Positions 16,527 to 26,253 of a stretch of 64,000 bases of DNA are shown here, in pieces. Source of the DNA: an uncultured Pelagibacteraceae bacterium (GTDB lineage: Bacteria; Pseudomonadota; Alphaproteobacteria; Pelagibacterales; Pelagibacteraceae); contig CABYZW010000002.1 of the NCBI GenBank assembly GCA_902523615.1, positions 34,808 to 98,807 of the forward strand, in the 5' to 3' direction. Made by a program: the position numbers and the translations under genes. The notes under the pieces are model-generated. The model was not told the origin of the DNA. It made no database searches and worked only from the letters and a program-made list of their open reading frames with translations. Each line of letters starts with the position of its first letter. Position 1 is the first letter of the stretch.

Positions 16527-16849
16527 CTTATATAGTAAATGATAAATGCATTAAGTGTAAATTAACAGATTGTGTAGACGTATGCCCAGTAGATTGTTTT
16601 TATGAAGGTAAAAATATGCTTGTAATTAAACCTGATGAGTGTATAGATTGTGGCGTTTGTGAACCAGAATGTCCTGTTGATGCAATAAAAGCTGACACAG
16701 AACCAGGCAGTGAAAAGTGGTTAGAAATTAATAAGAAATATTCTGAAATCTGGCCAAATATTGATAAAAAAAAAGATCCACCCGCGGATCATGAAAAATA
16801 TAAAGATGAGCAAAATAAGTTTGAAAAATATTTTAAAGAAAACATTTAA
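16523..16849 (+). CDS. fdxA: Ferredoxin, 7Fe (3Fe-4S/4Fe-4S)
   Basis: [29 protein letters not shown]...[16 protein letters not shown]. Confidence 0.95.
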
Positions 16850-17657
16850 AAAAAAGACAAATAAAGTTAAAAAAAAAATAATTAAAAAAAAAGTTACTAA
16901 ATCTAAAAAGTTAAAAACTAAAAAAATAATAAAACATAAAATTAAAACTGCTCCAAAAAAAAAGATATCAAAAAAGGAAACTAAAATAGAAACAAAAGCA
17001 GATAATCTGAGAATTCCAAAAAATAATGAACTTAAACCTGAAATTAAGAAAGTAAAAAAACAAGAAACTGAAAAAAGAGAGTACAAAATCAAAGATTACG
17101 TCGTTTATCCAAAACACGGGGTTGGACAAATAACTGAATTTAAAAAAGTAAATATTGGAGGAATTGATGTTGAAACTTATGTAATTAATTTTGAAAAAGA
17201 CAAAGCTAATGGAATGGTGCCAGTCAATAAACAGTTACATCTTAGACCATTAGCCACTATAAATCAGGTAAATAAATGTATTTCTATTCTCAAAAGCAAG
17301 CCAAAGATAAAAAGATCAATGTGGAGCAGAAGAGCCCAAGAATATGAGTCAAAAATTTCTTCTGGAAAAATTTATGAATTGGCAGAGGTTGTTAGAGACT
17401 TAAACAAAGGTGATGATCTCATGGTTGATCAATCTTACAGTGAAAGACAGCTTTTTGAGAAAGCCTATGAGAGAATACTATCTGAGTTTAAAATAATTCT
17501 AAATGTTTCATTAGAGGATACACAAAAAAAACTAGATAAAGCGTTAAAGAGAAACCTAGATAACCAATCTAAAACTCAAACAATAGCTAAAACGACTCCA
17601 GCAAATGATACTGGTGACGAGCCTGTTTCTGATAACGATGAAAATTTAGAGGAATAA
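16806..17657 (+). CDS. CarD-family transcriptional regulator with Lys-rich N-terminal extension
   Basis: C-terminal part [48 protein letters not shown] is a CarD domain. Start uncertain (ORF 16761; MSKISLKN at 16806); overlaps the fdxA 3' end. Confidence 0.88.
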
Positions 17658-17658
17658 A

Positions 17659-17698
17659 AAAAACGCCTCTCACACGTAACGTTATGAGAAGCGTTTTT
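17659..17698. terminator. Bidirectional intrinsic terminator between convergent carD and the basic peptide ORF
   Basis: AAAAACGC-c-TCTCA / loop / TGAGA-a-GCGTTTTT stem-loop with A-tract on one side and T-tract on the other. Confidence 0.85.
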
Positions 17699-17717: not shown

Positions 17718-17795
17718 CTATCTTCTTCTTCTTTTCTTAGCTTTTTTCTTAGCTTTTTTCTTAGCCTTCTTTGCTTTTTTTCTTCTCTTAGGCAT
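17718..17795 (-). CDS. 25-aa histone-H1-tail-like basic peptide (MPKRRKKAKKAKKKAKKKAKKRRRR)
   Basis: Read on minus strand from CAT at 17793-17795 to TAG at 17718; upstream AAGGGAGCTAAAG-ATG is a well-spaced Shine-Dalgarno; downstream terminator. Confidence 0.75.
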   Translation of the reverse strand: MPKRRKKAKKAKKKAKKKAKKRRRR

Positions 17796-17812
17796 CTTTA
17801 GCTCCCTTTTTA

Positions 17813-17843
17813 GTTAAACGAATCAAAATGATTCGTGATTAAC
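17813..17843. promoter_or_regulatory. Inverted repeat upstream of the basic peptide ORF, holding two GANTC sites
   Basis: GTTAA a CGAATCA aaa TGATTCG tga TTAAC; 8-bp perfect arms ACGAATCA/TGATTCGT with 3-nt centre. Confidence 0.55.
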
Positions 17844-17983
17844 TTATTTTTATTTTTTTATATGCGTTATGTCAATTATTTAATTAAAGTTAAAAACTTA
17901 AAAAAAAATTAAAAAAAAAAAATTATTTTTTATGCTTAAAAAGTTAATGTTTATGCGCTTAATACTCGAATATTTAAACAAAT

Positions 17984-19726
17984 TTAATAAAGTTTTTCTA
18001 AATCTTGTTTGTATTTTTCTAAAATTTTTTTTCTTTTTAATTTCAAAGTTGGTGTTAGCATTCCATTTTCAATTGTAAATTCATCTTTAATTAATTTAAA
18101 TTTTTTAACTTTTTCAACTAAAGATAAACTTTTATTCAAATTTTCTAAATAAAATTCAATTTCTTTTCTATTTTCCTCAGTTTCACTGACAATAAGGGCA
18201 ACTAAGTAATTTTTTTTATCTCCGTAAACAAAACTTTGTTTAATTTTTTCACTGAGACATAGTAAATTTTCAATTTTAGAGGGTGAAATATTATCACCAC
18301 CCAAATTGACTATAATTTCTTTTTTTCTATCAGTAATTTTTAAATTCCCTTCTTTAGTAATTTCTCCAATGTCACCCGTATGCAACCAACCATTTTTGAT
18401 AATGTCATCTGTTTCTTTTTTCATATTCCAGTAGCCTAGCATTACATTTTCTCCCTTTACTAATATTTCACCATCTTCAGCAATTTTTACTTTATTTGTT
18501 TTAAACGGAGGACCTACTGTTTCAATTCTGATTTTATCAGGAAGGTTGCAACTTACGACTGGCGAAGTTTCTGTTAATCCATAACCTTGTAAAGTAGGCA
18601 AGCCTATAGAATTCAAAAATTCACCAATTTTTTGATCCAAAGCTCCTCCACCAGAAACAAAAGCCTTTAATTTACCTCCAAATTGGTCTCTTATTTTTCT
18701 TCTTACTAAAAGCTCACAAAAAAAATTGAGAAATTTTTGCCTATAAGTAAGAGGTTTTTTATTTAAAATTTTGGTCCCAAGTAAAATAGTATTGGTTATT
18801 AAAAATTTCTTTACCCCTTTTTGTTTCGAAAAATTTAGAGAAATTTTGCTAAATAAATTTTGGTAAAATCTTGGTACAGCCGTCATGATTGTTGGTTTTG
18901 CAATAACCATATTTGGTAATAATTTTTCCAAACTTTCAGCATAAAAAACTTTAGCACCAAGTAAAATCTGAACATATTGAACAGTATGCTCGTAAGAATG
19001 AGACAATGGTAGCCAAGTTAAAAAAACTGGCGGATTTTTTTCAAATAGTAACCTTAAAATTTCCTCTGCCCCCTGGCAATTCGATAAAATTCCACCATGA
19101 CTAAGCATAACTCCTTTAGGATACCCGGTTGTTCCTGATGTATAAATTATACATGCTAGATCATTTCTTTTTAAATTTTTATTATAAGTTGTAAGATTTT
19201 CTTTTGATGTTTTAAATTCCAAATTCTTTCCAAGAGAAATATTTTCAAAACATTCTATTTTTTCGTTAAGTTTATCTATTGAAATAATAATTGTATTTTC
19301 TTTAATAAAATTTTTAATCTTATTAAATTGATCCATATTTGAGACGATACATAATTTGGGGTCACAATCGCTAATTATATATTTATAATCACTTTCAGAA
19401 TAGGTCGTAAAAAGTGGAACTGTCACACCACCTGCATTCATTATTGCTATATCTGAAACTAGCCATTCAGGTCGATTCTCTGACAATAAGATACATCTAT
19501 CACCTTTAATAATAATTTTTTTTAAATGATTAGATAATGTTACTATTTTTTTATATATGTTTTCCCATGAGTAAGAAAAGGTCCCAGAATTTTTATCATA
19601 TAAGCCTTTATTTTTAAGTGATACCAAAAAAATTTTTTCATTAATTTTTTTAAAATTTGCAGAACACTGTTCTTCATATTTTTTAAAAAAAAGTTCTACT
19701 AAACTATTAATTTCCTCTATTTTCAT
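17984..19726 (-). CDS. Long-chain acyl-CoA synthetase (AMP-binding, FadD-like)
   Basis: 580 aa; IIYTSGTTGYPKGVMLSHGG, LQGYGLTETSPVVSCN, GWLHTGDIGEI, ITDRKKEIIVNLGGDNISP. Confidence 0.92.
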   Translation of the reverse strand: MKIEEINSLVELFFKKYEEQCSANFKKINEKIFLVSLKNKGLYDKNSGTFSYSWENIYKKIVTLSNHLKKIIIKGDRCILLSENRPEWLVSDIAIMNAGGVTVPLFTTYSESDYKYIISDCDPKLCIVSNMDQFNKIKNFIKENTIIISIDKLNEKIECFENISLGKNLEFKTSKENLTTYNKNLKRNDLACIIYTSGTTGYPKGVMLSHGGILSNCQGAEEILRLLFEKNPPVFLTWLPLSHSYEHTVQYVQILLGAKVFYAESLEKLLPNMVIAKPTIMTAVPRFYQNLFSKISLNFSKQKGVKKFLITNTILLGTKILNKKPLTYRQKFLNFFCELLVRRKIRDQFGGKLKAFVSGGGALDQKIGEFLNSIGLPTLQGYGLTETSPVVSCNLPDKIRIETVGPPFKTNKVKIAEDGEILVKGENVMLGYWNMKKETDDIIKNGWLHTGDIGEITKEGNLKITDRKKEIIVNLGGDNISPSKIENLLCLSEKIKQSFVYGDKKNYLVALIVSETEENRKEIEFYLENLNKSLSLVEKVKKFKLIKDEFTIENGMLTPTLKLKRKKILEKYKQDLEKLY

Positions 19727-25039: not shown

Positions 25040-26253
25040 TGAAATATATTAAAAGAAAACTTACTATTGAAAAAGTTTCTGTTGAAACAATTGCTAAAAA
25101 ATTTGGTACTCCAACTTATTGTTATTCTTATGGTAAATTAAAAAATAATATAAATAACTTTAAAAGGAATTTTAAATCTTTTTCCCCATTAATATGCTTT
25201 GCTGTAAAATCTAATACGAATATAAATTTATTAAAGGAAATTAAAAAATTCGGACTTGGCGCAGATGTCGTATCTGTTGGTGAGATGATGGTGGCCCTCA
25301 AAGCAGGTATAAAACCAAATAAAATTGTTTTTTCAGGTGTAGGTAAAACTTCTCATGAAATAAGATACGCTATCGAAAAGAAAATTTTACTTATAAATGC
25401 GGAGTCAGAAAGTGAAATTAAAGAAATTGAAAAAATCGCAAAAATTAAAAAAAAGAAGGTACAAATAGGTATTAGATTAAATCCAAATACAGATGCTAAA
25501 ACACTAAGCCAAATTTCAACAGGAAAAAAAGAAAATAAATTTGGTGTAAATAGTAAATCATTTATTAAACTTGTCGAGCTCTATAAAAATTCAAAAAATA
25601 TTGAACTTAAATGTTTGAGTGTTCATATAGGAAGTCAGATTCTAGACTATAAACCTTATGAGAAAATGTTAAATGTAATAATGAAAATTTTAAATAAAGT
25701 AAATCATAAGTTTGAATTTATTGATCTTGGTGGTGGGATGGGTATTTCATATACTCATAAAAATAAAGTATTTAACTATAAAAAGTATAATTTTGCTATC
25801 AAAAAATTTTTGAATAATTATAAATCAAAAATAATATTTGAGCCTGGAAGAGCTGTAATTGGTAATACAGGAATTTTAGTTTCAAAGGTAATTTATATTA
25901 AAAATAGTGGGAAGAAGAATTTTATCATTTTAGATGCAGCAATGAATGATTTAATGAGACCAGCTTTATACGGTTCTAAACATAAAATTTTACCTTCATC
26001 AAAATCAAATAGAATTTCAAAAGAAATTTATGAATTTGTAGGTCCGATTTGTGAGAGCACAGATAAATTTAGAACTTTAAAAAATTTTCAGAAATTAAAA
26101 GAAAAAGAAATAATAGCAATATGTGATGTTGGTGCATATGGTATGTCATTAAGTTCAAATTATAACGTAAGAACTAAACCTTTAGAGTTAATAATTAAAG
26201 GGTCAAAAATCAAAATTATTAAAAAAAGACAAAAGCATGAAGAATTAATTTAG
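25039..26253 (+). CDS. lysA: Diaminopimelate decarboxylase
   Basis: 404 aa PLP decarboxylase; CFAVKSNTNINLLKEI, SVHIGSQILD, FIDLGGGMGISY, CESTDKF. Confidence 0.95.
   Translation: MKYIKRKLTIEKVSVETIAKKFGTPTYCYSYGKLKNNINNFKRNFKSFSPLICFAVKSNTNINLLKEIKKFGLGADVVSVGEMMVALKAGIKPNKIVFSGVGKTSHEIRYAIEKKILLINAESESEIKEIEKIAKIKKKKVQIGIRLNPNTDAKTLSQISTGKKENKFGVNSKSFIKLVELYKNSKNIELKCLSVHIGSQILDYKPYEKMLNVIMKILNKVNHKFEFIDLGGGMGISYTHKNKVFNYKKYNFAIKKFLNNYKSKIIFEPGRAVIGNTGILVSKVIYIKNSGKKNFIILDAAMNDLMRPALYGSKHKILPSSKSNRISKEIYEFVGPICESTDKFRTLKNFQKLKEKEIIAICDVGAYGMSLSSNYNVRTKPLELIIKGSKIKIIKKRQKHEELI

Follow-up and report, generated by a model that had tools for sequence, protein, structure and literature searches.

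Is an open reading frame of only 25 codons, encoding little besides lysine and arginine, a genuine gene in the genome of a member of the SAR11 order Pelagibacterales, and if so what would its product do? The ORF in question lies on the minus strand at 17718-17795 of the window, by which we mean the whole 64,000-nt stretch of DNA that was analyzed. It encodes MPKRRKKAKKAKKKAKKKAKKRRRR, composed of 13 Lys, 6 Arg, 4 Ala, one Met, and one Pro, and ends in a TAG stop codon at 17718-17720 (-). The sequence, strand, and coordinates reported in the initial annotation were exact. The Shine-Dalgarno sequence it had described as well placed was also found, AAGGGAG being located six bases 5' of the ATG; together with its spacer, GGGAGCTAAAG, it occupies 17796-17806 (-), and the same letters are present in 113 of 113 loci from the same genus.

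The ORF is set between two larger genes. The convergent neighbor, in this window and in all homologous loci, is carD (16761-17657, +), whose product has the CarD RID and C-terminal domains and whose start codon is uncertain. All of the closest named relatives of this CarD belong to Pelagibacteraceae/Pelagibacter, which places the window in a SAR11 genome. Upstream and on the same strand is a gene for an AMP-binding, long-chain acyl-CoA synthetase-like protein (17984-19726, -), considered here as context only. CarD itself has a Lys-rich N-terminal tail of approximately 90 residues (window 16761-17090), as does CarD of the sister family (locus L060, with repeated KKKVAKKK). The two convergent genes thus each encode an H1-like basic stretch.

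Conservation of the ORF in the Pelagibacterales

The ORF might have arisen by chance in A-rich DNA, since a low-GC genome favors AAA, AAG, and AGA codons. Among ORFs of 20-100 residues in the 64-kb window, however, it is the only one with a K+R fraction of at least 0.6, and resampling the window 200 times with a first-order Markov model yielded no ORF with a fraction of at least 0.7. The comparative data described below, in which the same frame, start, Shine-Dalgarno sequence, and synteny are kept across an order, refuted a chance origin, and we give it practically no weight. Another small basic ORF of the window, MRSQKVKLKKLKKSQKLKKRRYK at 25397 (+), has 57% K+R and no Shine-Dalgarno sequence and is likely a chance occurrence.

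A direct protein search with the 25-mer gave matches in just 10 of 61 genomes because the peptide is low in complexity. Since this hides relatives from a peptide search, the homologous slot was instead located by way of the neighboring CarD. carD is the constant side of the locus, as the neighbor on the other side differs: the genus has the acyl-CoA synthetase there and the sister family a CsaA-like tRNA-binding protein. A small basic ORF, in frame and convergent with carD, was present in 148 of 153 Pelagibacterales loci representing both families and all sampled genera, a count in which not all loci are independent, as the genome collections overlap. The five loci lacking the ORF all end at a contig edge, and the start, Shine-Dalgarno sequence, frame, and synteny are alike in all loci whose slot escapes the contig ends. 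A frame broken while the DNA repeat persists, the outcome that the initial annotation had named as counting against a gene, was looked for, and the frame was intact at all uncut loci.

Within the genus, GGGAGCTAAAGATG is exact in all 113 loci, which hold 63 distinct ORF DNAs encoding 38 distinct peptides. These range from 21 to 35 residues and vary by whole codons. The extra bases per aligned column were 10, 17, and 33 at codon positions 1, 2, and 3, respectively, and the codon differences comprised 7239 synonymous and 5814 non-synonymous changes, the latter mostly between Lys and Arg. The whole-codon changes in length, the third-position variation, and the predominance of K/R replacements make it nearly certain, as judged from these patterns of sequence change, that the ORF is a real, translated gene.

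Other genera of the Pelagibacteraceae carry versions of 21-50 residues in the same slot, for example MAKKRKKAAKKKAPAKKKKVAKKRKPAAKKKAPAKKRKPAKKKTAKKRKR (L174) and MAKKRKKAKKTSKKRKASRRKPAKKAKKRRR (L172). In genus g5 (L171 and L187), the mechanically called ORF begins at a GTG within the 5' hairpin, and a downstream ATG giving a product of 36-38 residues is the better start. The same gene in the sister family encodes an H1-tail-like protein of 40-99 residues, MEELKVIFAKARKKAKKKAAPKKK(RKAAKRKPAKKK...)n, with the conserved start ME(E/D)LK(V/I)(I/L)FA.A(K/R)KKAKKKAAPKK followed by variable AAPKKK/KPAKKK repeats. Comparison of L052 and L056 with L054 and L041 from this family revealed lengths ranging from 40 to 99 residues through gain or loss of whole repeats, with nearly identical promoters and terminators.

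No comparable gene convergent with carD was found in the 1.5-kb flanks of 26 loci from other alphaproteobacterial orders, and the family at the carD locus therefore looks to be restricted to the Pelagibacterales. A class-wide search with an 85-residue sister-family form returned no match, a result that is uninformative, the search set holding no genome known to match. Several other alphaproteobacteria (L146, L147, L149, L151, L156, and L163) repeatedly show, close to carD, short ORFs with RRRLK(N/K)(R/K/S)D(F/L). There was no exact match in viral contigs that would indicate carriage by phage, and our literature search found no description of this gene.

The promoter region and terminator

Upstream of the ORF is a predicted sigma-70-type promoter (17846-17875, -) with a -35 element TTGACA at 17875-17870 and a weak -10 element AAAAAT at 17851-17846. 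Wherever the available upstream sequence was long enough, in 145 loci, TTGAC followed by A or T is present, in 141 of them as TTGACA. In the same 145 loci, CGAATC follows TTGAC at a distance of 38-42 nt and is itself followed by A in 144. In the window, this element forms the 5' arm of a predicted mRNA hairpin near the predicted +1, CGAATCA-TTT-TGATTCG (17819-17835, -), which corresponds to the upstream inverted repeat of the initial annotation, CGAATCATTTTGATTCG at 17835-17819 (-). Loci of the main genus and those of the sister family have GATTC in the partner arm, the two pentamers being 4-8 nt apart. Genus g224 has GATTTG as partner arm, pairing through G-U. Longer stems take the place of this arm in genera g222, g223, and g5, yet CGAATCA is retained. 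One such longer stem, CACTTAGAAAATATTCTAAGTG, has a G-C pair where CACTTAAA...TTTAAGTG has A-U.

We considered whether the palindrome could have a single meaning. A rigid protein operator as its sole meaning was rejected, as the arms are spaced variably, by 4 to 8 nt, and other genera have a different 3' arm that still pairs in the RNA, including through G-U; an RNA hairpin as its sole meaning was rejected as well, since the 5' arm CGAATC is invariant. Because pairing is kept while the 3' arm changes, yet CGAATCA stays, there seem to be two overlapping constraints on this sequence, one for hairpin formation by the RNA close to its 5' end and one for a fixed DNA sequence. The cassette of promoter and hairpin occurred at most once per genome, in 20 of 26 genomes, and the matches listed were at this gene; a regulon with the same cassette was not found.

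Directly downstream of the ORF is the intrinsic terminator that the initial annotation had placed there (17659-17698, -), with 16 pairs and a U-run, which can serve carD in the opposite sense. A hairpin and T-run follow the ORF in 144 of 148 loci. With the frame, Shine-Dalgarno sequence, promoter, hairpin, and terminator all conserved across the order, the earlier description of a free-standing gene is borne out.

A candidate GcrA/CcrM site

The reverse complement of the invariant CGAATCA (17829-17835, -) is TGATTCG, which conforms to YGAKTCK, the extended GANTC motif proposed for activation by GcrA (PMC7987155); the same study reported no preference for an extended motif in Brevundimonas (PMC7987155). 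A YGAKTCK site is found in the promoter region of 145 of 145 loci, as TGATTCG in 144 and as CGATTCG in one. GANTC sites of SAR11 are methylated in vivo (PMC9516812), and GcrA (PF07750) is encoded above the Pfam cut-off in 22 of 26 genomes, including the genome from which the window derives. The gcrA gene was located at G000:C7:27862-28293, and its presence fits the CcrM homologue reported for SAR11.

TGATTCG is not enriched in the window (four observed versus 4.2 expected), and the argument for a GcrA site is therefore one of invariance and fixed place rather than of presence. The SAR11 promoter resembles the CcrM/GcrA-regulated sigma-70 promoters of Caulobacter in that every clade has the exact TGATTCG at a set distance from TTGACA, GcrA is encoded, and GANTC is methylated. 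In Caulobacter, however, the GANTC sites analyzed were upstream of the transcription start (PMC4287350), whereas the SAR11 site begins 38-42 nt after the start of the -35 element, or at about +4 given the predicted transcription start. We hypothesize that GcrA may control this promoter; a literature search found no description of GcrA targets in SAR11.

Composition and proposed function of the peptide

Peptides of the genus have a net charge of +15 to +24, and in the sister family the charge reaches +53. By clade, K+R makes up 59-83% of residues, Ala 9-25%, and Pro up to 7%, with some Thr; the 25-mer itself has hardly any Pro. The Lys/Ala/Pro-rich, low-complexity composition with KKA, AAPKKK, and KPAKKK repeats is that of H1-like proteins. 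The resemblance to histone H1 tails noted at the outset is strengthened by the sister-family orthologue, a protein of 40-99 residues built from AAPKKK/KPAKKK repeats with classical H1-tail composition, and because this form carries H1-type repeats, the assignment as a histone-tail-like polycation is well supported on the basis of sequence. Pfam gave no match at E<=1, and NCBIfam no meaningful match, the H1-like and ribosomal micro-protein models of both included, although profile searches are weak tests for short low-complexity chains such as one of 25 residues. Rfam yielded sub-threshold matches only, and the PDB a single non-significant match.

We somewhat favor a free-standing, disordered polycation of the histone-H1-tail or protamine type, which would neutralize and compact DNA and whose dedicated promoter may be timed to replication. 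The gene has the build of a transcription unit, with a strong -35 element, 5' hairpin, Shine-Dalgarno sequence, ORF, and terminator. A peptide of almost only K, R, A, P, and T would bind nucleic-acid phosphates without sequence specificity, and the bound polycation could help to neutralize and condense the chromosome in cells as small as these. It would act as a flexible counter-ion rather than as a folded domain, since its composition stays constant through free drift in length and in the number of repeats. The invariant GcrA/CcrM-type site suggests that synthesis is perhaps timed to replication. Composition and analogy to bacterial H1-like proteins point to non-specific nucleic-acid binding, most likely of DNA, with compaction of DNA as our best guess for the outcome; composition taken alone cannot tell binding to DNA from binding to RNA, the ribosome, or polyphosphate. 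A more ambitious proposal would be that all SAR11 possess a stand-alone protamine-like gene read by CcrM/GcrA, making the polycation with replication to pack the chromosome, and that the sister family has retained a longer, H1-type form and the main genus only approximately 25 residues. We offer this only tentatively and regard it as rather unlikely.

The Lys/Ala/Pro-rich, disordered character and variable repeat number are shared with bacterial H1-like proteins, such as AlgP of Pseudomonas, HctA and HctB of Chlamydia, and BpH1 of Bordetella, and with the H1-like tails of some HU proteins, the sister-family orthologues having AAPKKK/KPAKKK repeats. The genus form differs in being far shorter, at 21-35 residues, with an Arg cluster at its end, and the SAR11 peptide has no Pfam match to H1-like models and is encoded at an unrelated locus. 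It probably works like the H1-like proteins, a likeness in action and not a membership demonstrated by profile match. Sperm protamines and protamine-like peptides are likewise tiny, free-standing polycations dominated by Lys and Arg. We know of no chromatin replacement involving the SAR11 peptide, and this resemblance is convergent only.

Alternative functions

Binding to the ribosome or to RNA is the main rival to DNA binding, and an unlikely one in our estimation. The peptide would in this case fill a groove in rRNA or aid assembly in the manner of eukaryotic eL41 (25 residues), bTHX, or bS22/COX24, very basic proteins of the same size and charge class, and the strong Shine-Dalgarno sequence and -35 element would suit an abundant product. 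A groove would require a near-fixed length, however, while this family extends from 21 to 99 residues through gain and loss of repeats. Moreover, the SAR11 peptide has Ala-spaced KKA repeats with hardly any residue beyond K, R, A, P, and T, and its genus form has no aromatic or hydrophobic residue. The gene lies outside any ribosomal operon, and there was no Pfam or NCBIfam match at E<=1 to such proteins, short models being weak tests.

Organization of another polyanion, for example in polyphosphate granules, as by AlgP in Pseudomonas aeruginosa, is improbable, given that AlgP is much longer than the SAR11 peptide and that nothing at the locus provides a link to polyphosphate. The precedent is the reported effect of the H1-like AlgP on the spacing of polyphosphate granules (PMC9239181). 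About as improbable, or slightly more so, is that the transcript acts mainly as a regulatory RNA, with the ORF secondary, or is a dual-function sRNA. Its 5' hairpin is stable and contains the invariant CGAATCA, and the 187-nt RNA folds better than 200 of 200 shuffled sequences (z = -4.6), but an ordinary terminator supplies much of the fold energy, no Rfam family was found at threshold, and conservation across the ORF is of the codon type, with indels that keep the frame throughout. A disordered polycation acting on DNA is the reading that we prefer over these alternatives.

Implications for SAR11

The universal presence of a gene of 21-35 codons in a highly streamlined, free-living lineage implies an important function, and this gene would be missed by standard gene callers and by tryptic proteomics. 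The invariant TGATTCG is a concrete candidate target for methylation-dependent regulation in SAR11, whose cell-cycle control is little known. Should the product pack DNA, few free-standing chromatin-like proteins of bacteria would be smaller, and one would have to ask by what means the SAR11 nucleoid is condensed.
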